From the NCBI RefSeq assembly GCF_963675165.1, contig NC_087385.1:6268912-6332911 (forward strand): a stretch of DNA of 64,000 nucleotides. Reading direction: 5' to 3'. The notes beneath the pieces are model-generated. The model saw only the letters and a list, made by a program, of their open reading frames with translations. It had not been told where the DNA came from and did no database searches. The stretch comes from Halichondria panicea. Its lineage: Eukaryota; Porifera; Demospongiae; Suberitida; Halichondriidae. Made by a program: the position numbers and the translations under genes. How positions within the stretch are numbered: the first letter of the stretch is position 1; each line of letters starts with the position of its first letter. Shown in pieces: positions 5,488-56,125 of this stretch.

Positions 5488-7149
5488 ATGAGTTGCAGGT
5501 GCGGCATGCAACACAGCGTAGGAAAGATAATACTTGTAACGTTGGCAATAGTAACTATCACATTCAGCCAAAAGGAATCTGATAATAAAGGTATGTTAGG
5601 TATATACCTATCAATAATTCAAGACTGTGGACAGTTACTATTACACATTCACTTTACAGACAGCAATGATTGCATAAAAGATATCATTAGTGATCCTAAC
5701 AAAGTAACAGGTGAGTGGTCAATACTGCAGTGCTAGAAATATGCGTTTTGGTCAAATTGAAGGCTCAGAAAATGATTTATGCATGCGATGTAACTTATTT
5801 CCGCCATGATCTTATGCAATGGGGATTGTACAGACCTCGAATTAACTGTGCGTTTTATCGCTCTTATAAATAATATTAGTTAGTTAGCATTCATTTCTAG
5901 CACTGATACGGTATCAAGGGCGTATCGACCGCCGCCCTTGACGGTATACAAATGCTTCAGTTTTCAGTTTTGTACATCAACACTGCCTACACAAATTATA
6001 ATAGATGCATGCATTACTGCATCTGTTCATGCAGGGTGTGGACAACTAACATCACCAAAAAACGGGCGTTTGGATCTAATGATTGGACTTGAAACGGACT
6101 CAGAAAAAGAACCAGAGAAAGCGTTCTTTTCCTGCGATCCTGGCTACCATCTTATTGGACCTACGACGATCACTTGCAGGGATAGTAGCTGGGAGGGAAA
6201 AGAGCCTGTCTGTCAGCGTAAGCCAAACCACCCAGGCAGCTGTTTCAAGATTAGCATACAGCCATGCAAACTATATGTTTTGACTGAAAGAGTGATCGTA
6301 TTATTTAATTAAAGTGGTAGTAATTGCCCAACCCACATACCAACGGATACATTTGCGTTGGATGTTTTAATGGGTGTGAGCAACCCGGCATACACAGACT
6401 TCATTTTATCACTACACACAGTCAATCAGTTTCTTATTCCATTTTCCAAAAAATGCTTACTCAGAAGTCAACACTTTAACTATAACCTACACACAATCAC
6501 ATCTACACACTAAATATACTAAAAGCATGTCAAGAACTTGTTTAATTATACACACAGCTGTAGATTGTGGGCCTCCTAAAGCACCACAAAATGGCCGAGT
6601 AGACTACCAGATCACGACATATCAATCGAAGGCTTATTACCACTGCGATGCTTGCGCTACATTAGTGGGAGTTCAGAGAATATCGTGCAAGAAAAGTGGT
6701 CTCTGGTCTAAGACATTACCCAAGTGCGTCTTTGATAAAGGTACAACCCATGCACTAACGATCAATACATTTTAAGGCTCCAGTTTTTCCTCACTCCATT
6801 ATATTCTGGCCTCTAGCTTACTAAGCCTTTGATGGTCCGTATCAACATAATATATATGCTACACATGCATGTACCAACATCTGTCAAGCCAATCCTTACA
6901 CACATGCCCTCCCCTCCCCCACAACATGCAGAGTGCCCCCCAATCACGCTTCCCAAGAACTCCAAGGTATCCAGACTTGACACGACAGACAATAAGCCGA
7001 GAGTCACCAAGTGTGGGGAGAGAGTAGAGATAGATTGCTTCGGTGGCTACAAACTAATCGAGGCAGGCATTGCTACATGCCAGCCCGACGGTACCTACAC
7101 ATGGCTAGGTGGCACACCAGCATACTGTCGACGATTGAACTGGACCTAA
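5488..7149 (+). CDS. Secreted three-sushi-domain (CCP) protein, gene 3
   Basis: Five exons join in phase 1: 5488-5590, 5660-5710, 6035-6217, 6558-6740 and 6932-7149, giving 245 residues. Exon 1 supplies a signal peptide (hydrophobic core VGKIILVTLAIVTITF). Exon 2 is a short linker with one Cys. Exons 3-5 each hold a sushi-like module (GCGQLTSPKNG, VDCGPPKAPQNG and ECPPITLPKNS starts). The second module keeps the family's odd CDAC pair. Compared with gene 1 it lacks one N-terminal module. It is probably secreted; the function is unknown. It ends about 205 bp from the 3' end of NUP160, which converges from the other strand. Confidence 0.8.
5905..5946. repeat. Short imperfect palindrome in intron of sushi gene 3
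   Basis: TACGGTATCAAGGGCG is followed after a few bases by CGCCCTTGACGGTATA, forming a hairpin of about 16-bp arms inside the second intron. It has no coding content and may be a remnant of a foldback element. Confidence 0.4.
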
Positions 7150-13300: not shown

Positions 13301-14478
13301 TGACTCCAGAGAACAAGTCTTAAACGTACATGTACGTCTCTCTTTAAGGCATGCTATAAATAGTGGACTTGACTTAGTACATTTGTTGCAACTATCAAGT
13401 GCATACAGTGAGTACAATGTACAGATTGTTTTGACTGAGGATACTTATACAGATACATGTACATGTACTCAGTTACCAGGAAAGTACTGGAGTGTCTAGT
13501 ACACGTACACGTAGCTATAACACCTACCGTATATGGGTCATCCTTGCTGACCACACTAGTTGCTGACTCAGCAATCTTGATAACGTAACTGGGAGATGGG
13601 AACTGCTCAAAGAGACGCATCACTCTGATGTAGTAGCGAACCATCACCCCTCCATCACCCTCACCACACACACGCTCCAGACACACCTCAGAGCTGTCAC
13701 CTTGACAATAGGAGAAAAGAAAACACTTACACTACGTACTAAACATTTAAACAGTTCATACAAACAAACTGAGGGCCAGCATGCACATCACATGACTTGT
13801 ACATGTATGTGAAGAGGTAACCATCTGGTTATGGAAGGTTCAAGCTTACCAACTCCAGCAGCTGCCTGTGTGAAGCAGGTGAGGGCCTTGTCCAGCTCCC
13901 CATTACCAAGGAAACCCTGTCCTAGGAGGAACTCCAGAGAGTACCAGTCAGCAGAGGAATACAGCCTCACTCCAGTCACAAAGTCCTAGAGAGGGAGGGA
14001 AGGAGAGGTTGTAAGACACACACTGGCAGTGGTTAAAAGGTCAAGAGATAATTACGCCATCTGCGGCAGAGAAGACCTCAATGTTTATATAGTGAGAACT
14101 GTTACTATGTATAGTAGATACTGCAGAGGGAGCTAGTACCTGTATGTAGTAGTACTGGCAGTTGGCCAACAGGAACTCACAAACGCAGCAGGCTGAAGAG
14201 ATGGGCCATCTGTGACAACTGGTCAAAGAGAACAGCATGTTTACATGTACAAGCTGAGTTTGTACACTAATAGAAAAAATAGGTCAGCACAAGGAGTGTT
14301 GGATACAATGCTTTGAGGAGTGTGCGGGTGATGAGTGGGGCCAGCTCTCCCCAGTGTGGGTGGAGGGGCGTGGTCAAAGAGGAGACACGCCCACTCAGAG
14401 CAGACGGTATTTCAGCACGACCATAGGTGGACACAAACAATTCTGCCAGAGTGGTGGAGCGATCTGCTTGTGTGTGTG

Positions 14479-14522
<44 letters not shown>

Positions 14523-17500
14523 AGGGGCCTGCACTGTACTGCACTTACAAGTACATAAGGTCATTCGATACTTACCTGACATGTTTCTGGTTGCCTTCTT
14601 GGGTGTGATTTCCAGAGAGGAAAGTAGTTTCAAATTCACCTCACTATAAAATGATAAATCAGCGATAAATCATCTCATTGAACTTGCAGTACGAGGTATT
14701 AGTCTAGGTGGCCACACTCACAATGCTCCGTGTGTGTGTGTGAGGGTGGGTCTGGTGACGAGCCAGGTGAGGGTGTGGTAGCAATGGAGGAGCTGAGCAA
14801 ACGCTGGAATGTGTCTCTGAGTCATGTCCGGGAATCCCTGTATAAATAAATAGAAGTGTGTAAAGTCAAATTTTGCTATTGAATTGGTAAACAGATAGAG
14901 CAAAGTTACAAGACAATGAATGCATGCTAAACTTGCTAGAATACAATGCAAGTTACTGCTGCTATCTAACTGCCTCCTACACCACCCCTCACCCCTCACA
15001 CCTCACACACCCCTCACACACCTGTGTTTTCTCTGAGAGCCCCAGTGAGCACAACACAATGAGCACATCTCTGCACAAACACAGCCGAGACTGACACACC
15101 CCCTGGAGAGACGAGCCCAACATCACCGTGGCAACAGAACTGGCGCACAATTGTGACACAGTAGTCAGAAGATCAGAATCTGCAAAAATTTGGTTTTCCA
15201 AGCAATTCAATATGCACTTATCTTTACGGACATCAAAATTAGTTATGCTCATTAATTTTGAGGAAAGAAACTGAATTATAAGAGAGAGTACAACAACACA
15301 CAATCCATAGCATACAATGGTGGTCACCTATCTCAGTCTCCTGATCCATGTCCTCCGAGGGTGAGGGGTCCAACACAGAGAGGAGGTGGTCCAGCACAGG
15401 GGAGAGGTCCGGGACGGAGGAGACAATGGACGACAAGAAGTCATCTCCTCCACTGGAAGGAATGAATATCAAACGCTTTCAATATTAAGTTTGCAGCGTT
15501 GATATGACTCACTCTTCATGAAGAGCAGCGGCAATTTCCATCGCCATGGAGATTGGTGTGTTTCCATGGTTTCTGAGATCGAGTAGGAAAGAGTCCAGGA
15601 CATCTTTATTCAGCTGCACAAGAAACCAATATTAGGATGATGAGCTATTCCTAGTTCATGCCACACCTGACTGATGGTCTCGCTGACTCCGTGGATAAAG
15701 GTTCTAACATCACTACCCACGACAGCTGGGCCTGCAGGTCATGTGATAATGACTAACTTCACACACACACAGTTAACGATGAGCCAACGGCCATATATTT
15801 ATAAACAGCTCGTCTTTTGCAAGGTGTGGCTAACTCCATGCATGTAATACTAATCTGCCAAAAGAATTTGGGTTACAGCTAGTTGGGGTATATACGCATA
15901 TTCAAACCCAGGACCATAGTAATATTGATATGGCACATCATCACATGATCACCACACGTACTTCCAAGCTCACAGCCACTGCTCAGATAGTCGGTTAGTT
16001 TCACTGGCTGCACAAAGGACACCATTCCCTTCTTAACCAGCATGCCCAGCCCAGTACTGGGGTCTTGATGCAGGCCCATCGGCTGATAGAGTAGCTGGTG
16101 ATACTCCAGACAGCAACGGTAGAACTTGGACCAACACTTCTCACTCAAGTCTCTGTACTCGTCGTGTTGAAGCTCATCAGAGCTGGCCAACTGCTGCAGC
16201 TGAATGTGTGTGTGTGTGTGTGTGTGGGGGGGGGGGCGTTAATACACTCGATAGGACTGGATTATAGCCAAGTTGCATTAATACACTCGATTATAGCCAA
16301 GTTGTTTACCAACAAGTTGATGGTCTTTATTCATGCATTTAATGATTTTGTAAATGGATAAATACAACAAGGGTGTGATAAGCTAAGAATGCACAATTTA
16401 CATTGATTTTGCCACCAATTAATTTTAATCTAATAAACGAGGATCAACAAAAGTTTGGCACAAACAACTCTATCTAAATTTACAAGTCACATTCTTGCAC
16501 AACGTACCTCAGCCTCCACTTGTCGTGTTACCATGTCAACGAGGTCCTCTCTACTGATATCTGCCTCACTCAGTCTGACACCATACAGCTGTGGGGGGGG
16601 GGGGGGGGAGTGAGTTATAATCAGTAGGACACCTAATAAACTGGCTGCTGAATTCTATTGTTTTGTTTGTGCAAACCTCGAGAGCCTTGCAAATGGATGC
16701 AATGCTGAATCTCCCAGGATGAAACAGAGAGTCCAAGTACACTTCCTAAACACAGACAAACAGTATTGGTGAATAAAAATTGCTTTTTACATGAGGGGAA
16801 GGTAATCAAGACAACCACCAATTGTACATTCGGCACTTCTAGGTTTCCCAGTGAGGCACTGCAAAAAGGTTCTATACCTTGCAACAGCCATAACTTAATT
16901 TTGAATGGTCCAAATACAATGATTTTCTGATTTTCTGAAAGCTTAGAAGGAGCTCTTTCAGATCACATGCTCAAATCTCAAATTTAAAACAGGCCATAAT
17001 TTCTCATTTTCAGGAAAAGATCATGGCCCATGGTATTTTGTCAAAAACAGGCCCAAAATAGAATTTGATTTTTTTTTTTTTTTTTTAACACACCATCTGA
17101 AAGGCCTCTCTCTAAGCTTTCAGAAAATCATAAAATTAACGTCATTGGACCATTGGAACTAATGTTATGGTCGTTCAAAAGATTCAAACAGGCTCTAGGT
17201 TTCCCAGTGTATTTCAGGCCAAAGAAACCAACATAGCTGGTACTAGTACAGACCTCCGGGTTGCTCTGTGGCAGCACAAGGACTTGGTCGGGTGGAGACT
17301 CTTCGAGGGGGACGTCCCTCCAATTAGTGGGGGCCTCACTACACATGCAGGGGCAATGCATATAATAAGAGCACTGTGTCCACACTCTGTCCTCACCACT
17401 CGTAGACAGCCTGCTTGATGACAGGTTCCTCCCTCCCCTCCCTCCCACGACACTGCCACACACCCCACATCTCCGTATTGGTCAGGTAGAAGTCAACCAG

Positions 17501-18477
17501 TGATGAACTCTACACAGGGTCAACACTTTAATGTAATGGAGGGGTGCCAAGGGTGCAAAGTTCAAGCATGCAGATGTACTTTGTACCTGTGGACATCTGT
17601 AAGTATTGATGGGCTGCAGGAGAAGTTGGCTTTCCACGAGAAGCAGTTGGAAAATGGAAACCTGTCAAACAGCCGTAACTAGATCAGTCAGTAGTTCACC
17701 ACGCTAGAGAGGGGCTCACCTGTGAGACCGGTCCCACTCGCATGTGCATGGCAAAACGAAGAGAAGTAGATGTACCAAAGGGAGCCTTCTTTAACACCAG
17801 TTGGTCCTCTGAGTGTGAAGAAATGGCATATAATACATAGCAAGTAGTTTCTGCAGGCTATGAAATCAATTCTACCCACCACACAAAAAGTACCTTTTGT
17901 GTTCGACTCTTTGTCTCCTTGCAAGTAGTCGGTTAGATTGTGAGTGAGTACACACTGGCCCGGCTACATGGAGGGAAATATGATTACTTAACCCACCATT
18001 ATGATGAAAACGCCCACTTACGTCCATTGTCCAGACTTTGAGATGCAGACCTCGACACAGAGCGAGAATGACCGTATCCTCACTGAAAGAGTGCAGGACT
18101 AACGAGATGGGAGCATCCTCTGTCTCCTTGACGGACAGGAAGCTGTTCCAGAGCTTGTTCATAACAGAAGATTCCTTCAGTTCACTGCGTACAGGTAGAC
18201 CTGGGGAATAGGAGCATTAATGTCTGTAGTGTGGTTAGGGGGAGGGAAATAACCAAATTTTAATCTAGCGTACAAATATAAAATGAGAACAAAGACAAAT
18301 TTACAGCCTTTGGTTTCTTCAAAGGTATGTGTGCATGTGCCCCTCCCCCCTCACCATGGGTGCCAGGAGGAGGCAGCTGGACAGTGAAGATGGAGCCTGA
18401 GAGTAAAGGGTAGGCAAAGGTAGCACATCCATCACTGGACAACAAGTTAGCACAGCTGGACAACGGGGCAGCCCTGT

Positions 18478-18520
<43 letters not shown>

Positions 18521-19358
18521 AGTGCATAATGAATAGAGGTCCCACAATTGCAAACACAAGTAGCAGCTCGCTATAAATATCACCACCATTTTTACTGTAC
18601 ATGCTAGCACATTCATAATTGTGTAGGAACTTAGTTACTTGTCTTGAATCCCAAACACTGCTGCTATGTTGGCTCCAAGAAAACTGTCCTCCCTACAGAA
18701 GGCCAGTACTGAGGGCACCTGACCCTCACCAACAGCACTCAGAGCTGGGTCCTGTGGCAGGTAGGGTATCTAAGCAGTGAGGAGTAGGCACAGTGTATGC
18801 ATTACCTTAGCGATGACCTCGGGATGTGGTAAGACAAGTCGATATGCAGCCAGTGTGGTGGAGAACATGAGGACCACACTGGAGCTGTCCACCTCGGCCA
18901 TGTCTGCCCCTAGGAACGCCGCAGAGGAGGGCTCCAACACCAGCCTCAGGGCATGCCCCACCAGGTTGAAGTCCATTGAGAGCTCCAATAGACAGAGAGC
19001 ACCATTGTCATACTGCCTATAGTGTGAACACATAGACCACCAATTAACGATAATACCTCCCTCTAGATCTAATAATTTATATATTTGATTGTGCATTTGT
19101 ATCTGTATCAGTGTACGTGTCGATCCAGAGCTTTAGATCCACTCACCATAGGATAGATCTATTCCTGCAGGTGGATGTGAGCACCCCACTGTCCCTATAG
19201 CTGAACCCCCCAGCATTGCTGACAGCAATCACAGCTTTGGGGGGTTGATTAAAGCTTGATACAGTTCTAAGCTTCACTTCTCTCCAGGGAAAGCTTGTCA
19301 GGGAGAACCGAGTAGCTGCCACCTCTCTGTAGAGCACTGCTTCCTTGATAACCTCCAT
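7355..19358 (-). CDS. NUP160: Nuclear pore complex protein NUP160
   Basis: NUP160 is a scaffold subunit of the Y-shaped (NUP107-160) nuclear pore complex. The family has an N-terminal beta-propeller followed by an alpha-solenoid. Many short exons read in order along the minus strand. The start at 19358 (MEVIKEAVLYREVAA) leads into GGFSYRDSGVLTSTCRNRSI, matching the vertebrate GGFYYVESGKLF region. Later anchors are CANLLSSDGCATFAYPLLSG (18478-18346), ALCRGLHLKVW (about 18050), CWSKFYRCCLEYHQLL (about 16110), EEVISLLLQVGLFDKAL (about 9620), AWNMLRAYLES (about 8360), HPSVWLPYSALDHLQLAL (about 7790), and a last exon 7355-7471 ending in SYMSLATY and a stop. Conservation spans the whole human protein. 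Introns are short except for one of about 2.4 kb (roughly 9680-12085) that hosts another gene. The exon chain was not resolved base by base in the middle. Confidence 0.9.
8560..9125. repeat. Dispersed foldback repeat (TTTTCTGAAAGCTTAG family), NUP160 intron copy
   Basis: Three related segments alternate in orientation. TTTTCTGAAAGCTTAGAAA at about 8718 and about 9030 is mirrored by TCTAAGCTTTCAGAAAAT at about 8885. Shared companions are CCTTTCAAATGAT and a CCATAACTT/AAGTTATGG segment. The same family recurs at 16885-17180 and 52797-53490, and its beginning at about 41675. No open frame runs through it, so it is a non-coding interspersed repeat. Confidence 0.7.
9828..9990. repeat. Inverted and direct repeats in NUP160 intron
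   Basis: GACAACCACATCATATCCTG with GTAGAGCTTTAC near 9831 is met in inverse by GTAAAGCTCTACAGGATGTG near 9897. A second partial copy (CTACAGGATATGATGTGGTT) lies near 9938 and a third fragment near 9966. The structure is that of a foldback element with extra copies of one arm. It sits just upstream of the nested gene at 10042. Confidence 0.6.
10042..11355 (+). CDS. Intronless protein with N-terminal death-fold-like domain, nested in NUP160
   Basis: One uninterrupted frame of 437 residues lies antisense within a NUP160 intron. The start may be 10042 or the in-frame ATG at 10132 (MDPNSVCIALVSEG), where the recognisable domain begins. Residues 31-105 look like a small helical bundle of the CARD/death-fold type: LVSEGLIPAIV, then a charged helix, VKIEPAVYHTIMAKLE and WLKNCLNKLRR. 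This resembles the divergent CARD-like domains common in sponges and cnidarians. Residues 170-400 are predicted helical, with long amphipathic stretches and a Trp-containing segment (GELFWKDMSDHC), without a family I can name. The C-terminus is Ser/Glu-rich. There is no signal peptide or clear membrane span. Absence of introns in an intron-rich locus suggests a retrocopy or an intronless family. The CARD-like call is inference. Confidence 0.65.
   Translation: MAVSPSEQTCRSPEFLALQRSCATLIIGITMDPNSVCIALVSEGLIPAIVREYCLSSKLPTEKGLKLFETIMSQVKIEPAVYHTIMAKLEAYDWLKNCLNKLRRNYEAEKARAVQKAKVHVYGVQKKTQAFDLEVKIEEEVYALDKIPAVDSKIVILETENRFQFTDFVTEMPGFIRQLKNAIIATGPRFTQEQRNVHRLMHDIFSLYDKSAAKIDTCLRILRCVAKGFLFTENTTIEQLLETEHTFSKIASKMQEFALQAMCNFKNVKEKCIQSEKMLTLRRNEECVHVEAINTAIFTLNHFSFITEHGELFWKDMSDHCSILADPILTSQIEKALQYPEEKQLELWTSNGFNRHVIKYYASCVILQKVSTDYIDVIEQERTNLQHSIYENPSIKESRSNLKKMREKMFRGIKRDDLQDESSGGDESIEGETMEVN
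14472..14521. repeat. (GT)n microsatellite
   Basis: This is a dinucleotide run in a NUP160 intron. Frames through it are artefacts. Confidence 0.9.
16885..17180. repeat. Dispersed foldback repeat, second NUP160 intron copy
   Basis: It contains CAGCCATAACTTAATTTTGA and TTTTCTGAAAGCTTAGAAGG near the left end, and the inverse TCTCTAAGCTTTCAGAAAAT near the right end, separated by a short T-run. It belongs to the same family as 8560-9125 and 52797-53490. Confidence 0.65.
18479..18519. repeat. (CA)n microsatellite
   Basis: This dinucleotide run lies directly upstream of a NUP160 exon on the minus strand, where it forms part of the intron. Confidence 0.9.
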
Positions 19359-19749: not shown

Positions 19750-22700
19750 CTATACGTCTTTCACGTCATCAAAGAACTTGTAGGTTGGGTTGACATACCC
19801 TGACTGCTTCATGACAGCAATCTTCTCCTGTTCAGAGAGCAGAGGTGTGTCTTTCTTTGTCGACTTTGGTCTGGAGAGCTTGAGTCTAGTGACGATGATG
19901 ATGAGTACCACCAGCGTGATGGTGAGTAGAATACCCAGAGTGGCAAAGAAGTAAATAAAGAACATTGTCTTGAAGTCGTGCTTTTCATGATGCTCATGGG
20001 TGGGTTCTGAACAGGAGAGATTGAAAATTAATGTGTATTCAATATTAGGAAAGGAACTTTAATTACAGTGTATACAAGTACATCTATATAGGGAAGTACT
20101 CACCAGCCGTTGTGGTTATGCCATCAAACACAATGACCTCCTCCCCTGCACCTACAAAGAAACAACAAACAAATGAAGAATCTTGCTGTACAAATTGACC
20201 AACTACACGCCCTACACTCATTCTTGGAGCTGACCACTAACATAACTGTGTACACTATAGTTGGCTGCATACCTGCTGCATCAATCTTTATTCCATTAGC
20301 ATCAGCATCAATCTGCACATCAACGCCAGGCAGGTCAAGGTCAATGCTTAATCCCGGATCACTACTCTCCTCCAACTTTGATTGGCTTCTCAACTGCTGA
20401 GGTTTGTTTTTCCCTTCGGCCGCTTCTTTCATTTTCTCTACTTTCTCATAGGCGTCTTTGCCAATGCCAGGATATTCTTGCTCTGCAGAGACTGTGCATA
20501 CATTAATTACGGTTAATGTTTACATTCTTTCTGTCTGAAAATGAGGCTTCACATAAATCATACTTGTCAACATAAATACAATATACATGTATTTGCTAAT
20601 GACTTACCTTTTGGTTCGTCCTTATCATTCATGGGAAGGATGACTGGTCCTGGCTCAAAAGAGTTCACGAACTCCTTCACTAGGTCAAGCTTTGGATCCT
20701 TTGTTGTTGTTGACTCTTTAGGTAGTTCCGTTGGCTCGGATGTGGTTGGAAGCTTAGATCGAGTGATTGGTGGTTTGCTAGGGTCAGTTTGTGGTGACGG
20801 CTTTGTCTCTTTCTCTATCTCCGTATATTTCACAGGGACAGTTGCGGTGGGTTTCTCTTCAGTTTTTTCAACTTTCTTTGGAGGGTTTGTATTCTCTCCT
20901 TTCCCACTAGCCTCATAGTTCTCATCTTCATCCCCTTCAAGATCCTCCGGGGGACTCTCTGCCTCGGGTGTTGTCGATGGTTTTGGCTCTATCACAATTA
21001 CGTTCGTGGGTATTTCGTTGACAACTGGCTTCTCAGGCAACTGTACTATAACCTTCTCTTTGGGTTCCTGTGCCAGCTGCTCTGCTAGAGTGTTGAACTT
21101 AGTGATGAACTCAATCAGGATGATAACTTCGGTGCCGTAGCAAAGATCGTAGTACATACCAGCTCGCTCGAAATGCTCCCTCTTGTTATTCTTCTCCATA
21201 TAAGTAATGCAAGAGCTGAGTCCATTCTGAAGCTGGCTCTGATATTCAGACATCTCAAATAACAGTTGAGAAAATCGTATTTTATCAACTTGAAGTTGTG
21301 TGGTGGCGTAATCCATGACCAGTTGAAGCCTGTCGTCCATGTAAAGCTTTATATCGTCATCGCAGCGAGTCTGCATACGACTCAGTTTACGGTAATGGTT
21401 CACTTCGATATCTTTGAACGCTTTCCGAAAATTCGCCTCGACGTCTTTCTTATTTTCAAAAGCTAGCTCTTCAAATTCAGGCTGATTTACAGTCTGCTTG
21501 GTCTGCTTGAAATATCGCGTCAATTTATCGAGTTTATCTATGAATTTCAACTCTTCTTTTTTGTTTAAAATTTCACATTTCATTCTTTCTTTGTGGATGT
21601 ACTCGATGATTTCGTATCCAAACATTATTTCCATGTCGTCGTTTCCACTGGAGAAAGTCAAGAACTCAAGTGGGACCACATCTGTCAAAGTGTGTGGGGG
21701 AGGAATGGACACGATAATTATGGCATTGGATACTTGTGGTGGTTTGTAGAAACAAGGTACATGACGTATAGTGAATGCACTTAAGTAGCCTAAGCCAAGA
21801 TATGTGGGAATCTAGGGCACGAGAAACTATGCAACATTGAGCACTTAAATTGTTGCATGCTTGTTATTGCAATTGATTGCTTGCAGCTATACACCGTAAA
21901 ATGTCAATATAGTCACAGTGAAATGCAGCAGCTTGTAGACTACAATGGAAGGTTTATTGTGAGGCTATACAGACAAAGCGGTACTCAGTTTTGACAACAG
22001 AGCCCCTAAACACAGCACTTAGCAATCCCTTGTGTAAGCTGTTGCTACACTATTGTCAAGTGGACCTGCGCCTCTATCAAAGCTGCCTCTATCAAAGCCA
22101 CCTCTTGAGCCCAAACCACAAATTAACGGCTATAGCGTATAAGGTGTTAGCAAAGCACAAGCTACGTTAGTGAATAAAAGTGGCTCGATCACACAAACAA
22201 ATCAAGTAATACCAGAGATATTTGCAAGTGACGCTCCCATCAATGTTTACATAGCTGCTTCATTAGTTCATTAGTTCATCTTCGGTAATTGTGACTAGAA
22301 GGATATGTTAATAGCATAGCAGTGTCTAGAAACTTAACGTTGAGATTTATTAGGAATGCATGATACACTTAGCTGCCGACTAATTGTATGGTTTATAAAA
22401 TGCTTCCCTCAATACTACAATCTAAGTGGTAGAGTGGGTGGAAGACACATCTTCTGTCTTGTGATGATATGACATTCCAATCAGACCAGGAAAGGTCAAC
22501 TGGTACAATGCAAAGCTTAATGAGGAATAATGAATTCGATATATTTTTCGTTGTACACACATCATTTCAGTTAATAATTTTGCTGAATGAAATCTACTTA
22601 ATGAGTGTTGCACAACACTGAGTCTATAGGCAGCAGAGATACTATACTTGGGATCAAACAACAGATGAATACAGCTACCACCTTTCTCTTGCAATTAAAA

Positions 22701-24072
22701 TCATAACCAAGACTTCAGAGAATTCCACCTGGAAGCTACCCGCTATATATTCATGAACTGACATTGCACCCGAACACGTGGGAAACACTCCCTCTAGTCA
22801 ATGAATTGCAGTGCACATCAACTGACACAAGACTAACTCAGTCAAAGGGTCTCCATTATATGGCTATAACAATACTGTCCTTATACTCTAGCTTATTCAA
22901 AGAAACGATGCCTAATGGTGGGTTAATTGTAATTGCCTCGCGCCTAATTGGCCTCCTTCTCAGGTTACACAGCATGCATGTATAAACATAATAGTATTGC
23001 ACTGAAACGACACATCCACAAGTGTATAGACTAGTGCCAATGTGACGGCATGCGAATTACAGAGAGCAATAATAAATTTGAGCAAGTTCCACCTAACAAC
23101 CTGAACTTGGCAGTTTTCAGCACATTAGCAGTAGGTCTAGTATGTAGCAGCAATCGTCACTCTCTCTTTATGAACTTATAGAAATCTTATGATCACACCA
23201 TAACTCACTTGTATCATACTTTTCTTCGAACCTCGCTTCCTGTAGAAAAAAGTAAATGCAGATATAAATGTCATGACTGCAGTGGGTTCAAACATATCTG
23301 CGTGTGGTAAACCTAAGAATGCGTTTGAATATTTGAGGTACAATTAAGAGGGCATGTAGATTATTATGGACTACATTCACTTTTGGACCAAATAAGTTAA
23401 TAGTGTTGGCCCAAATGAAGGATGGCTTTGTCTCTGTGAGCACTATTTACTAGACTAGACTAGTGTGCAGGTTACCATGAGAGCAAAACGAGCATCAACA
23501 GTCTAAAGGTATAGACAACTAACACAATAAGTGTGCAGGTTACCGTGAGAGGTTACCATGAGAGCAAAACGAGCATCAACATGCAGCTTAGAGGTATAGA
23601 CAACTCTAACAATGCCACGTTGTTCCTTGCAGCTTCAATAAACATTGACAGTAAACAAATGGCTTGTGGTGGTTTATATGCTGGTAAACTTGGCAAAAAA
23701 CGTGCCAATATATGATTGTAGTGCAGAGACATGAATCAAGCAGACACACGCTGACAATGCTATCAGCATTCCTGAACACTCCACAATACACACAGAAGCC
23801 AAGGTTGTGGTTAAGTTTGGCCTTTGCAGAACAATTAATAGGTCTATGCAATGTAAAATTAACCGTGCAGTCTGTTATATATACAGTGTAGGAAACATGA
23901 GCTAGTTGGCGGGTAGATATTCGATTGTCTATATTGAATGGAGTTGACATCTCATGTTTCGTAGAACAACAAACATAAATCTATCCAGTATCTTCCAGAT
24001 ACTCACCGCTTCTCCATGAGCAGTAGCCAGTAGAATACTGAAGAGTACTAGGAGAGATCCTAGTCTGAGCAT
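19750..24072 (-). CDS. APP-like (amyloid precursor protein family) type I membrane protein
   Basis: Six exons join in compatible phases: 24072-24007, 23239-23209, 21681-20608, 20491-20273, 20151-20104 and 20006-19750, giving about 564 residues. Residues 1-22 are a signal peptide (MLRLGSLLVLFSILLATAHG). Residues about 45-240 are a long charged helical region aligning with the APP E2 domain; the clearest match is MDDRLQLVMDYATTQLQ against human LNDRRRLALENYITALQ. Residues about 245-480 form a Pro/Thr/Glu-rich acidic linker. Residues 494-518 are one membrane span. The 46-residue tail ends SGYVNPTYKFFDDVKDV, matching NGYENPTYKFFEQMQN of APP, including the NPTY signal that binds PTB-domain adaptors. 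APP-family proteins are cell-surface adhesion/trafficking receptors cleaved by secretases. No E1 (growth-factor-like plus copper-binding) cysteine-rich region is found. The large introns contain no missing exon that I could see, so the E2-only form may be real. Confidence 0.8.
23464..23611. repeat. Tandem duplication in intron of the APP-like gene
   Basis: A segment of about 70 bp (GTGTGCAGGTTACC, GAGAGCAAAACGAGCATCAA, GGTATAGACAACT) occurs twice in direct orientation. The second copy contains an added repeat of GAGAGGTTACCAT. It is non-coding. Confidence 0.6.
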
Positions 24073-24906: not shown

Positions 24907-25022
<116 letters not shown>

Positions 25023-25805: not shown

Positions 25806-28800
25806 ATGGCGGCTCGGCGACAGCCTGCTATGCCACCACCACTGTGTCTGCCCCGGCAGCAGTTGACATACGACCGCCACAACAACCCAGTAAGATTTTA
25901 AACTACTATTAACTTAATCACACATGCATGTACAATATAATTATTGGCAATGCATAAGCTTATAATAATGCTGATGGCATGCAGGACACTCATTTACTTG
26001 GTATATTTATTTGGTGCAGATTCTCACCAAGAAGATGGTAGTGGCTGTCCTGCAATGTTCTAAGCGCCGGCAGATTAATGCTAAACTGTACTGTCTGCAG
26101 TGTTATATGAATGCGGCAGGACGAGTTAACGTAAGTATAATAATGCAGATACACCTAGTTATAATAATGTATATATACACAGTAAAATCTTAATTACTGT
26201 CAGTACAATTATTGTGCCATGGGACAGTGTGTTTGTCAGAGCATTACTTACTGTTGCATATAGTTAATGGGCTTGTAATTGAACATTCATTTTTGTAGTT
26301 CACATCTACGAAATCCGCGAAAATATTGAATTACCCGGTTTACAGTGTTTTCTTAGATAGGTTTACAGTGTTTTCTTAGATATTTATTTCTCTGATTTCA
26401 CGTTTATTATTACGAATTTAATTTTACATTGTACATTAATTTTACCTTATAAGGCTATAATAACAATAGGAAGATAACGTTTTATGGCATTAATTTAGCT
26501 GTCACAATATCAACATTATTGTAATTATTATTACTAAGGGCGTATGTATACGTCTTTGCTATTACCCCTAACAAATTTTGCGCTTGCTAATAAAGTGAAT
26601 GTCACGCGTCATATTTATGCATCATTTTTAGGTACACATGCGCAAGCGAGGTATATGGTAGTGTGTTTGTGTGTCTGTGTGTGTGTAGGCTGTAGACATT
26701 TTTAGGTGCACATGCGCAAGCGAGGTATACGGTAGTGTGTTTGTGTGTCTGTCTGTGTGTAGACTGCTCAAGGATGAATCAAGTGCAAGTAAGAGTTTCT
26801 ATAGGCTTCTAGTCATGTTTACTTGGATTCTAATTCGTGGATTTGCAAAATAATACTTCGTTCTCGAGTTATGCCTACTTGGAATGCCTTTTCAGAAGAG
26901 CACGTAGCCAAACTTGTTTACCGAGTGTTGCTACTCTACTTCTATAGTAGTTAGCTCTGCACTAGAACGCTAGCTATTGGTAGCTGCAAGAGTGAGAAGA
27001 GAGAATCATGGTCGATCATTACCCACTCTCTGAGTTTTTGCATGCAGCAAAATTAAATTGTTTATCATGCTATTAGTAGCTTTATGTTATGTAGCTTTGG
27101 CATCTCCACCGAGCTTTCATTTTTTCTGAAGTGACAAAAGAAATCTAATTAAAGTTTTTCATAGCTGACATGCACACTTCTTTCTATACACAGATGGTGT
27201 TCTCTTGGAAGGGGGAGGATGTCCCAGTTTGGGATTATAAGGATCACTGCGCCCGTGAGGCGACCCGGTACATGAAGCACGTTCAAGACGACCATCGTAA
27301 GCATCATACTTTAATAATTGTACAAAAGCATAATAAATAGTTTATATGCCGTATAACGGGAAGTTTTTGTGTGCAAATATTTTTCGTTTTTCGAGGGCAG
27401 AGCAGTTAATGCGAATTAAAACTGGGATAAACTACCACACACTGGCATTTCACTATTGGTGGGTGTGGTTTCCTGGCATTGAAACTCACAAAGTTTTCTG
27501 CTGAAGAAACTTGAGCCAAAAAACAATAATTTGCACCTACTTTCCTGCTATACAACGTATATATACAAGATGGTAAATCAAAGCTTTTTAATTTAAATAT
27601 TGATGCACGTTCAAGGTTGCTAATGCCCCATTTTATTTCTGCAGGCCCACTCCATCCCAATCCACTGAATGTGAGGTTCCTCGCCTGGCAACTGCGGGAC
27701 TTAGGTTTCTGTCGGTGGAATAGAAATAGGGTATTCCCTCCAGCTCCCATCATTCCACCTGCCCCAGTTCGGCATGCTAGAAGAGGCCCCATTGGTCCTC
27801 AGGGTCCAATAGGTCCAATAGGTCCAATAGGTCCAATAGGTCCAATAGGGCCAATAGCTATAGGGCCAATCGGTCCACAGGGCCATCAAGGTGCCCAAGG
27901 AGACCAAGGCCCACAAGGAGAGCAAGGCGAGCAAGGAGCACAAGGTCCACCTGGTGCCCAAGGCTCACAGGGGCCCCAAGGCCCACCAGGAGGAGGAGGA
28001 GCCCCACCTGGAGGAGGAGGAGGCCCACCAGGAGGAGGCGGAGGCCCACCAGGAGGAGGAGGAGGCGGAGGAGGCCTAAGTCTTCTACGGGGCCCACAAG
28101 GCCCACAGGGTAATGATGGTGAGCAAGGTATGCAGGGCCCACCAGGCATCAATGGTGATCGCGGTCCTAGAGGCGCTCCAGGATTACCTGGAGCGGTGGG
28201 ACGAACAGCACCCAGTATTGTAGGACCACGTGGAAACCGTGGTCCACAAGGACACAATGGAGCAAGAGGTCTCCAAGGTCCACCGGGACAGCAAGGTCTC
28301 CAAGGTCTCCGAGGACCACCTGGCCAAGATGGACCGTATGGACCAACTGGAGCTACGGGACAAAAAGGCGACAGGGGGAAGCTCGGTGCCAAAGGTGAGA
28401 GAGGTCTAGATGGTCCGAGAGGGATGAGAGGAGAGAAAGGAGAAGATGGAGATGGCGAAGATTCCAAGCAAAAGATAGTAAGTTTCTAATGCATTAGTCG
28501 ATTATTTTTCACCGATTGTTTTCCTCTTCTTGCAGTATCTGTTGACTGTGGTGGTGAGGGAGTTAATGAAGACTCAACCGCTGCCTTTGTCAGTTACCCT
28601 GACTAATGCCTTGGTCGCTCTAGGAGTTATGGACGACCAGGGAGATAGGCAGCAAAAACAAACTGCCCCTCTCCGTCGATCCGTGGTGTCGGGATCCTAC
28701 CCACCTCGGTCGGCAGGTGGGGGTACAAGTCGAGATGGATGTGGTGTTAGTGGGGGAGGTGGGACGAGTGGGAGTGGTGGTGGTAGCGGGGGCGGTGGGA

Positions 28801-45237: not shown

Positions 45238-48200
45238 TTAGTCCATGTAGTTAGTGAGTGAGATACGGGGAACAATGTTCATAGACTGGAGCTCTTGAAA
45301 GAGAAGCTTGCAAGCATAGGGTATCTTGAGTGATGAGATCTCACCAGACGACTTACAGTAATGGCACCTGCAAAGGGAAATATATTATCAAACAATGTTC
45401 TGTCAAAAAGCAATTCGGAATGAACTCAATTTGAACTCAATTTGAACTCTCAATGTATATGCACACAACACGGATATATAAAGGCTGGTCATCATTATGC
45501 ATTATAGGCAATAAGTATTTCTAAATGCAATCAAAATAGGTATGCAATCAAAATAGGTATGCAATCAAAATAGGTATAATAATTATAGCTATGTCAACTC
45601 ACCATCCTGAATATCCGAGCAGTCCACACTTGCCACACACGTCGACCTCAAAGCTGTCACTGGAAATCATGAGTCTCTCGAGGAGGAGCATGCTGGCCCC
45701 GTATCCAATCAAACAGTCCCTCTCCATCTCGCCCAGACGTAGACCACCCTCCCTCGAGCGTCCTTCCGTCGGTTGCCTCGTCAGAACAGCACGTGGGCCT
45801 TTAGAGCGAGCGTGCATCTTGTCCAACACCATATGCTTCAGCTTCTGGTAGTAAACCGGGCCAAAGAAAACGTACACACTTAGAGGCTCTCCAGTGATTC
45901 CTGAGGTGAGGTAGTCCTTCCCAGCGTAATTGAAGCCGTAACGAATGAGGTCAGCAGATATATCCTCTACTTTGTCTCCACCAAACGCAGTACCGTAATG
46001 AAACTTTCCATCGAGAACACCAGCTTTTCCGGCAAGCAGTTCAATGAGTTTCCCCACTGTCATACGAGAGGGGAAGCCGTGGGGATTCATGACTATGTCA
46101 GGACAGATCCCAAGATCATTGAAAGGCATGTCCTCTTGATTGGCAATCATCCCACACACTCCCTTCTGTCCGTGTCGACTGCTAAACTTGTCTCCAAGTT
46201 CCGGCCTCCTAGTAGATCGAAGGAGCATCTTGATGAGGTACGACTCTTCAGTGTTTGAGGTGATGAGTACACGCTCCATGGAGGCCTCAGTGGGTCCCTT
46301 GTACGACTGTGGTGTATCTTTGTACTCCAGAGTACCAGGCGTCTGCTGCTGCATTGACTGTGTGGCAAGGGGCACAGATTTGTTCACCAGGATTTGCTTG
46401 TTTTGGATTCTCTCTCCGGGTGCACAAATTCCATCCTGGTCCAGAACGGAATGTCTCCAGATTGGCTTCCCCGTATCTGCTTCTCGACTCGGACCCATAA
46501 TTCGATCGTACGTCTGGTTGGCATAGCGTTTCAGTGAGCACGTCTGCTTACGATAGACAAGGCATCGACCAAAGCCACGATCGAGAGAGGACTTGTTGAG
46601 AATGAGAGCATCTTCAATGTCGTAACCACTGTAACTCATGACTGCAACGGAGGCGTTTTGACCGGCTGGCAATTTATCAAACTGTATCAAGTCGATCGTT
46701 TTCGATTTGACGAGGGGAGCTTGGGGGTACACGAGTAGGTACATGATCGTGTCGATACGATTGAGTTGGTTGTAGGCAATGGTACCCATGGCTTGCTTGC
46801 CCATAGCACACTGATAGGTGTTTCGTGGTGACTGATTGTGGTGGGGGTATGGGATGAGACCAGCACACACACCCAGAATCGTGAACGGCTCTATCTCGAG
46901 ATGAGTTGTGCCCTCGTAAATCTCAGACTCATACAAGGCGATATTGCAATCGTTTTCCTCATTCACATCGAGATACTCCACCAGGCCTTGACGGAGGAAA
47001 TCTTCAAATTCCATTCCATTAGAGAGCATTTTAATGTGACCCTCTGTCACACGCGGCTTCCAGTTCTCCACAATAATGTACGGCCTACAGACACGCCCAC
47101 CATCGGACGCTATGAACACACACCTCTGTCGATGATTGGGGCATATTGAAACAAATTCGTTAAGTCGACCAGATCGTCTCATGAGTCTAAACATGCGAAT
47201 GAGGCGCTGATAGTCCGTAATCACGCCTAGAATGTTCCCGTTCAGAAAGACAATGTACACCGAGGGAAGACTCAGTTCCTCTCCAGACAGATACTGGATA
47301 TCTTCAACGCCGAGGTTAAACGCCAATCGTTGAATTGGACCCTCCTCTTGATCGGTGGTGATGTGAGTCATGAGAGCCAGGTTTTTCACAAGACCGCAAG
47401 CTTCTCCTTCGGGAGTGTCTGATGGGCAGAGCATGCCCCATTGTGAGGGTTGAAGAGATCGAGGTCCACTCACTTTACGCGTTTTTTCAAACTGACTGGA
47501 TATCCTGGTCATGTGACCGAGAGCGGAGATGAAAGAGAGACGTGTGAGTACTTGAGTGACTCCAGAACGATCCATTTTGAACCGCTTGACAGACCAGTTG
47601 CCAGTGGAGATGGCGTTAGCTAGACCGTTGGTAATTTGATCCTGACGCATGTGGCGTACTATGTCGAAGACTTGTGTACGTTGCTTAGGGATAATCTGAT
47701 CAGCAATTCTTTGTAGCTCTGAATTAAACTTCTTGAATAGATCTTCAAAGAGCAATGCCACAAGCTGTAGGAAAAGATAAGAGTATAAAATTAATAATGA
47801 CAGAAATAGTCACAGTGGTAGTGTAGAGCGTGGTATTACACAATAATTAATTATGCGTATTACTTATTAATTATTAGCAAGCCAGCCAGTTAAGGTAACA
47901 AAATTCACATCTCAGTATAATTATTAATAGATAAAATTATTGCCCCTCACCTGACCAGCGAGCTCAAGCCTCTTGTTGCCATAGTAATCCCTGTCGTCCA
48001 ATCGCACTTTATCCTCCTGGGCCTCGATCACCCTCCGCAACATGAGCGCCAGGTACACACACTTCATCCGAAAGTTGTACTTAACCACCGGAACATGAGC
48101 CAACACAACTCCTGCCAAAATGTCCACGGCTTCATCAACCTTGGACTTGTGCTTCGACCAAGCCGTGCGTCTTGCTTTTCCACCGAGATACTGCAGAGCT

Positions 48201-49072
48201 TGCATTTGAGTGAACACCTTCAGGTTGGCACATTCTTCGAGAGAGGGAGCAAACGACGAAAGAATGTCTTCGCCACTTCCGACTAGTTGAACAATTTCTT
48301 GATCAGAAACAACACCCATGGCTTTGAAAAGGACAACAACTGGTATGTTCTCAGCAAAGGAGTTGTGCTTAAGGTAGTATCTGCCGCCCTTGGAGATGAG
48401 ATTTGTGCGACTCTTTCGCTCGTGTGTGGAACTAGTTACAGAGCACTCGACTACACCCTTTCTATCAACATCGACAATCATACGATTCTTTGAGAGCTGC
48501 TCTTGAATGAGAATGACTTTTTCAACTCCTCGCACAACAAAATAACCTCCTGGATCAATCGGGCACTCGTTCAGCTTTGCCAACTCTTTAGGTGACTTCC
48601 CTGTCAAGATACAATTGGAGCTCCTGAGCATGATGGGCATTCGTCCAATGGGGAGAGCCTTGCGAATGACTCTCTGCGTTCCTCGGGTGTACTCAATATC
48701 GACTGTGATTGGAGCAGCGTAGGCCATGTCTCGGAGACGACACTCGTGAGGGGATATGGGTTTGGTTACGTTGAACGACTCCTCTACGTCTGGGTTACCC
48801 ACGGATATATTGAGGTACTTGAGGTAAAAATTAGGGTCAGCAATCGACGTCACCATCTCATTTGCTTTCATAATCTTCTTGATCTCGACGTTTATAAAGT
48901 AGTTAAACGAATCGATGTGCTGTTTCACGAGGCCTTTCACTTTGAGGAAGGCCGGCAGCAGTTTCCATTTGTCTCGCACGGTGTTAATGGGTTTGGAGAG
49001 GTCTTCGCCATTTTCGAAGAGACATTCTGGGAATAAAGAGCGATCTATCTTGTCTGGGTGGGGGGTCTCCAT
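45238..49072 (-). CDS. POLR3B: DNA-directed RNA polymerase III subunit RPC2
   Basis: This is the second-largest catalytic subunit of RNA polymerase III, which makes tRNA, 5S rRNA and U6 RNA. Three exons join in frame: 49072-47951, 47764-45603 and 45367-45238, giving about 1,137 residues (human 1,133). The N-terminus is [16 protein letters not shown], followed by [20 protein letters not shown]. Typical beta-subunit motifs follow: [85 protein letters not shown] and [20 protein letters not shown]. The C-terminal zinc site is CGKCG plus CHYC across the last splice. The RPC2-specific N-terminus rules out the Pol I and Pol II paralogues. Only two introns, in contrast to its neighbours. Confidence 0.97.
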
Positions 49073-49388
49073 CTACAAGGGGGGGAGGGGCAGGTAGCAT
49101 GACTTGCAGTATTCAATGGACTGTGATTGTATGCAGGATCATGAATCAGTGTGAGTGTGTGCATCACTGTAGCTAGTTTGGTACATACCTAGCATGTGCT
49201 GATTGCATGTGCTGATTGCATGTGTGTAAAGATGAAGAGACTGTTCAATAGCTTTTGGTAGTTCTTACTTTGCAGCAGCCATGTGGAGAGTGAACACGCC
49301 CATTTCCTGCAGGTTAGAAGGCGTGTCTGAAGCTCAAAGCTAGGGAGAGAAAGCTAAGAAACTGAAACACAACAGCTAGCTTGCTATC

Positions 49389-50853
49389 ATGGGTATGAGT
49401 GTGTACGTGGTAAACAAGGCTGGAGGGCTTATCTTCTCCCACGACCAGCCCAGCCCCAAAGCAGAGGTGGAGACCACCTTCAACTACCCACTACGTATGG
49501 TCCTGGAGGAAGTGGATAGAAACATTGTGGTCAAGTTTGGTGAGCAGCATGGAATACAAGGTAAGCTTTCTGGAGTTGTTAACCTGTCTAATTGTCACTG
49601 TACTATCCACCATCTAGATAGTAGCCATCACACAGTGTCATATTTTAGCCTGCTACAGTATCTAGCTGTAGTTTTCTACATGTTGAAAACACTGTACACA
49701 CGTATTAATAATGTGGCTACCTCCCTCACTGATACAGTTGGCTACTCGCTGACCTCAATCAATGGTACTGCACTAGCCAACAAGTGCCTTCCCGACGGCA
49801 CCAATGCTATGAAAGTGATAGAAGACCGAAGCAAATACCCTCTGACCCTCAAATTCACCAGACTGAGAGTGTCCATCAACGAGAGGATTATGTTGCTCAG
49901 CATGCTTCACTCGTGAGTAGTCTTTTTACTGTTGAAAAGCACACTCCCAAACTCTACTAAAGTTAGTTGTAGCTAGGAGGTCTTGCGATTATGTATTTTG
50001 TCCGTCTCACACACCTTACCCTAAGCATAGTTTTCTTCTGCAGGATCTATGCCATATCAGTGAAGCTCTCTCCAGAGAAGCGTTCGTCTGGAATACAATG
50101 CCTTGAGGCCAATAACTTTAAGATTTACTGCTTTCAAACACTCACTGGTCAGTGCCCTCTATGCTCTAACCCTCTCCCCCTCTCTCTCCTTACTTTACTA
50201 TTAATAGGAAAAAAAATTATTCCCTAGCATGCATTTAAATTAGTGTACATGATCAATATTTCTGTTGCGTACCACGACAGTTAAGTAAGCACTATACATT
50301 TGCTATAGTGATTGTGATTTCATCATACTTATCTCCCATCTCTCCTCAGGTGTCAAGTTCATTGTGATGGCAGACTCGACGCATCAGAAAGTCGAGGAGC
50401 TTCTGGCTAAGGTTTATGAACTGTATTCAGATTATGTCCTCAAGAACCCATTTTATTCAGTGGACATGCCCATCAGGTGGGAGCATTGTGATTGGCTGGG
50501 TGCAGTAGTACTGTTAGTTGTTGTCCTTGGCAGGTTTATTGAGAAGCAGAATTCCACTCATAATTATTGTGCTGCTCTGTCTTCCATTCTCGCCGCAAAA
50601 AAACCATTAACTATTAACTTTAAGATGCCTTTTTAGCCCTTTGAATGGCCTATCATCTGATGAGGACTATCTTATTATCTTATAATGAATGTGTTGCTGA
50701 ATTTGTTAGCTTTTAGTATCGAATTATTCATCATCTCCCCCCCCCCCCCCCCCCCTGTACAGATGTGAACTTTTCGCATCAGGGTTGGTCAAGCTGTTGG
50801 ACACTACTGAGAGAGACCAAAGAGGCAGTTATCAAGGAACAACTTCCGCATAA
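49389..50853 (+). CDS. TRAPPC4: Trafficking protein particle complex subunit 4 (TRAPPC4)
   Basis: TRAPPC4 is a longin-fold core subunit of the TRAPP vesicle-tethering and Rab-GEF complexes at the Golgi. Five exons join in frame: 49389-49560, 49738-49912, 50044-50147, 50350-50476 and 50763-50853. Landmarks are [12 protein letters not shown] near the start, [20 protein letters not shown] (the PDZ-like insert of this subunit), [46 protein letters not shown] and [19 protein letters not shown]. The length of about 222 residues is close to human (219). It lies head to head with POLR3B, 316 bp between starts, and tail to tail with RBBP5. Confidence 0.95.
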
Positions 50854-54561: not shown

Positions 54562-56125
54562 ATGATCATTCTGTGCAGGCTGTTGTTAGCGATGATGGTG
54601 CTCCAGGTAGAGTGGTATGGAGCAAGGGGAGAGAAACAGACTTACAAGTGGGACGATCGGGGGTACATCCTCTACTGCCCCTGCATGGGTGAGGATGGGA
54701 AAATTTGCTCTGATATAATGTAATGTTCGTTCCTGTAGGTCGGTTTGGAAACCAAGCCGCACACTTTCTGGGCTCGTTAGAGTTTGCCAAGACTCTCAAC
54801 AGGACCTTTGTCATTCCACCGTGGAGGTCTTATGTACATAACGTAGGCATATACCATTGCAATCATGATAATACAGTCCTATTCATTCACACAGCTACCT
54901 TTTCATTTTTACAATCACACACACCAGAAAAATGTGCGTTTTACTGATTGGTTTGAATTGGAGCCAGTTCAATCCTATCACAAAGCTATTCTCATGGAGG
55001 ATTTTCTGGAACAATTGGCCCCCACTCATTGGCCACCTTCTCAACGAACAGGGTACTGTTACAGGGCCACAGGGATGGCCAATGAGAACGACTGTGAAAT
55101 GAAGTATGGGAATCCATTTGGACCGTTCTGGGAAGAACTGGGTGTAGACTTTGTGGACTCAAACTTTACCAGTCTTGGCTATGATGTACGGATGGATTTT
55201 GTTCGCAATCAATGGGAAACAAAGTAAGTTAATAATATTTCATCATTCGCTCTTGTATAAACTCTGAACTATTTTCATTTGCTTTTTACTATTCTTATTC
55301 AGATACCCAGCAGAGCAGCATCCAGTGATAGCATTGAAGGGAGCTCCTGCTAAGTATCCGGTACGCAAGGAACACAGACATTTGCAAAAGTATCTCAAGT
55401 GGAGCAAAAGGAAGTTGAACGAAGCCCAAGAATACATTAACAATACCATCGGAGACAACCCCTATATCGCCATTCACTTGAGGATGGGGAAAGATTGGGT
55501 ACGGCTATGCTATTCACACTATATCTACTTGTTGTTAACATTACACTTGTGATTGTAGGATACGCTATTTCCCTTTATACATTTTGATCAGTGGGGGCGA
55601 CTCAGTTTTAATGCAGGGAAGGACATTATGAACCTCTACCAAGGGTCTAATGACATGCTGACTCTGTTTTTGATGCAGGAAAAAGCATGTGAGAGTGCAG
55701 TTGGTCGAGACAGCTTCATGGAGTCTGGCCAGTGTTTGGAAGACATTCCTAATGCAAAGATAGACAAAGACGTCTGTTTGCCCTCCATGGAAGTGGTCAA
55801 ACGACATCTTCTGGCACTACTGAGGAAGACGGGAATAAAGTCTCTCTTTGTTGCCTCTGACGTAGAAGCTGAGAAGTACAACATGCAGACATACATTGGT
55901 CGAAGAGTGAGTGAATGTACAGCTTAGTCTTATAACTATAGGAACTTAATGTTCACCAACACACCAGTACTTACTAAAGCGACAAGGCGATTCCTATAAT
56001 TTGCCAGGTTGAAAAAGGAAGCTGCAACCATAGTTTAATAGCTTCCCAAATTCTCCTCTACTTCTATACCCACGGGCCCCATGCTTACACACCCACCCAC
56101 CCACCCACACACACACACACACACA

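Follow-up and report, generated by a model that had tools for sequence, protein, structure and literature searches.

A candidate APP-related membrane protein, apparently without an E1 region, encoded in a sponge genome

The normal function of APP is unsettled. Appican and the syndecan/glypican-type proteoglycans are membrane-anchored and carry an acidic stretch followed by SG or SGxG. According to the accessible part of PMC3660159, the APP gene is dated from cnidarian sequences. As far as the accessible text of PMC11405698 goes, APP homologues occur in all examined species but ctenophores, it not being evident there whether sponges were examined for APP; the YENPTY motif extends from cnidarians to bilaterians but is missing from placozoans, and the Mint tree omits sponges. 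BACE is reported as absent from Amphimedon by PMC11117577 and PMC3865767, although the abstract of the latter names Porifera and a table in it labels Clytia as a sponge. The open-licence literature searched, in the portions accessible, states no sponge APP homologue, although one may be in print elsewhere. Here we analyse a window of 64,000 nucleotides (G000:C9:6268912-6332911), whose minus strand holds, between positions 24072 and 19750, a gene that we read as an APP-related variant and not as canonical APP. All genome searches covered the 131-Mb, 39-contig assembly to which the window belongs.

With a probability of about 0.72, we take the product to be an APP-related type I membrane protein of a sponge, devoid of E1, which would signal by regulated proteolysis and is perhaps a proteoglycan. 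It probably works like the tail-signalling half of APP. At the cell surface, the ectodomain would form a helical head, possibly dimeric, and a glycosaminoglycan chain would probably be carried on an acidic SG motif. A sheddase would cleave the long linker and gamma-secretase the remaining membrane stub, the sequence GYVNPTYKFF and the stretch preceding it recruiting a FE65-like WW-PTB adaptor and endocytic PTB proteins. The overall role would be that of a receptor for adhesion or sensing, operating through regulated proteolysis in a nerveless animal. The original prediction had traced APP, as is usual, to cnidarians and bilaterians. This needs correcting, since placozoan homologues, also APP-family proteins in an animal without neurons, were already reported; these are said to lack NPTY, whereas the sponge protein keeps it (PMC11405698, in the text accessible). 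The apparent novelty is therefore the occurrence in a sponge of an APP-like protein that bears NPTY; that the family extends beyond cnidarians and bilaterians is not in itself new.

Gene model and the APP-type tail

Six minus-strand exons, separated by five GT-AG introns and with mutually compatible phases (0-0-1-1-1-1), join to encode a 564-residue type I membrane protein with four cysteines. Exon 1 (24007..24072) carries the start codon and the predicted signal peptide MLRLGSLLVLFSILLATAHGEA, with a hydrophobic N-terminus and a donor of rank 3/273. Exon 2 (23209..23239) is a 31-nucleotide micro-exon, encoding EARFEEKYDT plus 1 nucleotide, which restores the frame. Exon 3 (20608..21681) encodes residues 33-391, comprising the complete E2-like helical domain and an acidic linker rich in Pro, Thr and Ser, and the linker continues through exon 4 (20273..20491) and exon 5 (20104..20151). 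The juxtamembrane part, the membrane span, the cytoplasmic tail KDTPLLSEQEKIAVMKQSGYVNPTYKFFDDVKDV (19753-19854) and the stop are found in exon 6 (19750..20006).

Splice sites were scored on the gene strand with a generic, hand-entered consensus. The five donors of the gene took ranks 1-5 among 273 GT sites and its acceptors ranks 1, 4, 5, 16 and 69 among 315 AG sites, the acceptor before 20491 being weak. Direct joining of exons 1 and 3 is out of frame, so that an exon whose length is 1 mod 3 must lie between them; exon 2 was the sole middle exon above the first-scan thresholds in the 2.3 kb that separate them. Since two acceptors of the model itself fall below these thresholds, a relaxed second scan was added, in which the exon 2 donor (23209) was the sole donor scoring at least 2 in introns 1 and 2, and all candidate exons terminated at it. 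Exon 3 gave one match only across the genome. Hydropathy revealed two hydrophobic stretches only, residues 1-20 and about 491-525; by this measure, the protein has a putative signal peptide and a single span in a type I layout. The gene thus appears well modelled from sequence alone, and both the six exons and the signal peptide with one membrane span were found as originally predicted.

The membrane span occupies positions 19882-19965 of the minus strand (about residues 494-521, in exon 6). The APP tail family PF10515 scored 25.8 bits on the spliced protein, just below its cut-off of 27, and 29.6 bits, above it, in the genome search, where no passing match for APP tails other than this gene was found. 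A second tail-like match on contig C12 (E 8.4, 14.4 bits) was judged to be noise. In the protein collection, 15 relatives of the last exon were found, each with a precomputed PF10515 assignment (15/15), and the cut-off was passed by each of the 8 that were scanned again. These relatives, we infer, come from sponges.

In an alignment of 16 rows (the window protein and its 15 relatives), Y18, F19, F20, T22, L23 and G24 of the membrane span are invariant, as are G69-Y75 (GYVNPTY), F78 and D79 of the tail. A difference from the APP family is the replacement of E by V in the NPTY motif, in 16/16 tails. Comparison of the tail profile with PDB sequences listed 30 entries, of which 12 were APP at 2.8e-8 to 3.3e-5, with human APP C99 structures as best matches (2.8e-8); the remaining 18 matched over the membrane-span part at 0.026 or worse. 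The gene thus shares with the APP family an APP-type transmembrane-tail exon, MKQSGYVNPTYKFF vs MQQNGYENPTYKFF. On these sequence comparisons, we regard homology of the tail to APP as firm. The conserved NPTY tail had been proposed at the outset, and its above-chance match to the APP C-terminal domain leaves that homology standing. The sequence K-D-x-P-L, mostly as KDTPLL, is kept in 16/16 tails (window 19837-19854, minus strand). We take KDTPLL to resemble a DxxLL sorting motif, and its Thr-Pro presumably falls near the site of APP Thr668.

The E2-like domain and the acidic linker

The E2-like helical domain proper (21062..21616, minus strand, residues 55-239) was delimited from structure models, fold matches and the alignment of relatives. 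Its predicted model is a two-part coiled coil placed ahead of an acidic linker, a likeness to the APP family, although in the sponge gene the domain lies wholly within one exon. When the predicted structure was compared with the PDB by Foldseek, APP-family E2 domains came first in both searches, none of the matches to E2 being significant by E-value. A hhalign comparison of the sponge profile with three vertebrate E2 sequences paired position 43 with APP695 326 and position 145 with 423. The structural alignment, whose entries we take to be APP695-numbered, gave the pairs 23-306, 27-310, 109-387 and 205-482, equal to the hhalign offsets to within one residue. Ungapped identity at offset 278 was 16/112, ahead of all other offsets among the 22 compared (next best 11). 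Because the two registers coincide and identity peaks there, sequence and structure point to one alignment, although AlphaFold may have acquired E2 from PDB structures.

By sequence, E2 finds little support. The hhalign match itself was weak (probability 2.1%, E 0.023), and Pfam APP_E2 matched none of 8 proteins (the window protein and seven E2-exon proteins). A profile search (A1) of PDB sequences gave no match. Out of 200 shuffles each, the hhalign score was reached by none with shuffled columns, 1 with 7-blocks, 5 with 14-blocks and 7 with 28-blocks. The modelled likeness to E2 thus comes from the predicted fold and the agreeing registers, whereas the similarity in sequence is not significant; taken together, we judge E2 homology to be likely. 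The original prediction, a helical domain aligning with APP E2, is supported for predicted fold and register, and the structure prediction that could have refuted it placed E2 first; a significant sequence match does not accompany it.

A different explanation is that only the tail is homologous: a sponge membrane protein otherwise unrelated to APP, built on a long helical hairpin, would have acquired, or would alone share, the APP transmembrane-tail module, its resemblance to E2 being coiled-coil convergence. FE65 docking and gamma-secretase cleavage would still be expected of such a protein. The first rank of E2 domains in both PDB searches and the equality of the profile and structural registers, with the identity peak at the same offset, argue against this explanation, as does the succession of E2-like domain, acidic linker, membrane span and NPTY tail, which is the order of APP. 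We consider it unlikely.

The E2 exon has at least six relatives in the protein collection; the second search, made with the E2 alignment, listed 6 proteins and missed P0004, itself a member of that alignment. A search for relatives in genome_contigs and viral_contigs returned pattern matches, none of which was confirmed. The four cysteines of the E2-like domain are conserved wherever relatives cover them, in contrast to the human APP E2 sequence compared, which has none; from helix spacing in the model, a C139-C190 link is plausible. The net charge of the domain is -7 in the window protein, whereas human APP E2 has +1; the relatives, of which some are partial, range from -16 to +2. Heparin contacts of E2 in APLP1 are given as K422, H426, R429, H430 and H433 in the accessible text of PMC8163877. 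At offset 278, none of the five equivalents is identical in the window protein, the APP residues K428, H432, K435, H436 and H439 being replaced by N, S, T, Y and K.

The predicted acidic linker is indeed present in exons 3-5, with 28-35% Pro, Thr and Ser. It includes an acidic SGxG stretch, DEDENYEASGKGE (20894..20932, minus strand, residues 283-295), as a predicted glycosaminoglycan attachment site. Defined as SG with at least 3 acidic residues within 8 on either side, an acidic SG site occurs in the linker of 7/7 proteins (the window protein and six relatives), as SGxG in five and SSGEE in two. The same seven linkers all carry an [E/Q]PGPV motif, located in the window within the conserved stretch EFVNSFEPGPVI (20639..20674, minus strand, residues 369-380). 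This linker motif is FxNSxEPGPVI-like, and PG[PI]V is present in three copies in each of the relatives P0021 and P0022. The acidic SG motif suggests a proteoglycan, and the xylosyltransferase domain encoded in the genome adds plausibility to the putative glycosaminoglycan chain. The predicted site resembles those of appican and of the syndecan/glypican type in combining an acidic stretch with SG/SGxG in a membrane-anchored protein, but it is flanked by an E2-like domain and an APP tail.

Search for an E1 region

Unlike the APP family, the sponge gene has no E1 region that we could find. Pfam gave no E1 match (growth-factor-like or copper-binding) on the window protein, and the relaxed scan of introns 1 and 2 yielded no candidate for a Cys-rich exon, with more than one Cys, between the signal peptide and the E2 exon. 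When the genome was searched for APP_N, APP_Cu_bd and APP_E2, nothing was returned; as 14/14 control genomes were silent too, the sensitivity of these searches is unproven. Because protein, candidate exons and genome all lacked a match, the gene as modelled is without E1, as had been predicted, and from sequence this lack is likely to be real.

Intron 1 holds a 124-residue open frame with 13 Cys. As a possible overlooked exon of E1 it was set aside, having neither a Pfam family nor a fitting donor. The gene could otherwise be a normal APP whose E1 escaped notice, through alternative transcripts with another first exon or strongly diverged exons bounded by atypical splice sites. The prediction of the six-exon model from sequence alone, the silence of the control searches and the Cys-rich frame itself leave some room for this. 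Against it stand the lack of any Pfam family for that frame, a single donor scoring at least 2 in introns 1-2, which is that of exon 2, the lack of a candidate exon with more than one Cys, and the in-frame junction of signal peptide and E2 exon via a short spacer. We hold an overlooked E1 to be very improbable.

How a gene devoid of E1 arose can be read in two ways, each of which we put forward tentatively and at a similar, rather low level of confidence. An APP without E1, with signal peptide, E2-like domain, glycosaminoglycan-bearing linker and NPTY tail and served by FE65 and gamma-secretase, may be the ancestral, pre-neuronal form, to which E1 was added later; it would then have been present in the last common ancestor of sponges and other animals. 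Alternatively, E1 may have been lost secondarily in the sponge lineage from a fuller ancestral APP, which would change the evolutionary reading and not the description of the gene. Other lineages are reported without APP features, for example placozoan homologues without NPTY (PMC11405698, accessible text), which is in favour of loss. Against loss, neither the gene nor, in searches that gave no signal in controls, the genome yielded any trace of E1.

Candidate partners, genomic setting and possible meaning

The gamma-secretase subunits presenilin, nicastrin (weakly), Aph-1 and Pen-2 all gave matches over their cut-offs in the genome. A second presenilin-like stretch (G000:C15:491449-491879), ~10 kb from the main gene, contains internal stops in the unspliced reading and may be either a duplicate or intron read-through. 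Nine PTB matches were obtained, one of which adjoins a WW domain on the same strand and has FE65 PTB1 as its best PDB match (9.2e-18). A later open frame at this locus matched tensin PTB domains weakly and FE65 PTB2 not at all. We infer that the exons of this WW-PTB locus form one gene, which would encode a FE65-like adaptor. The presence of genes for such an adaptor and for gamma-secretase subunits in the same genome is a further likeness to the APP family.

Silicateins are sponge enzymes. In the genome, a hand-typed silicatein sequence matched 66 cathepsin/silicatein stretches. Several of those retrieved (L010, L013, L014, L016) have Ser in place of the catalytic Cys, as CGASYAFS, CGASYAFA or CGSSYAFS, and ordinary cathepsins with CGSCWAFS were retrieved alongside them. 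Because of these silicatein-type genes with an active-site Ser, we take the genome to be that of a siliceous sponge, most likely a demosponge, in agreement with the sponge origin first supposed. Silicatein-type sites are crowded at G000:C2:655500-669200 and C6:199900-206500, suggesting gene clusters.

Within the window, open frames at 13357-19132 (minus strand) match NUP160/120 nucleoporin domains, some weakly; the APP-like gene therefore adjoins a NUP160-like gene. Upstream of the APP-like gene lies a long TG microsatellite (24913-25020). A gene for the second-largest subunit of RNA polymerase occupies two long open frames at 45602-49072 (minus strand), and plus-strand matches were found to collagen (27530-28486), Sushi (5884-6772), Sybindin-like (49380-49913, just below the cut-off) and O-fucosyltransferase (54847-55224) families.

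The co-occurrence, in an animal without nerves, of an NPTY-tailed protein with an E2-like domain, a FE65-like adaptor and the gamma-secretase subunits would suggest that the half of APP concerned with tail signalling predates synapses. The same gene set would also suggest that this half can work without E1. The question of APP's first job thus becomes testable in sponges.
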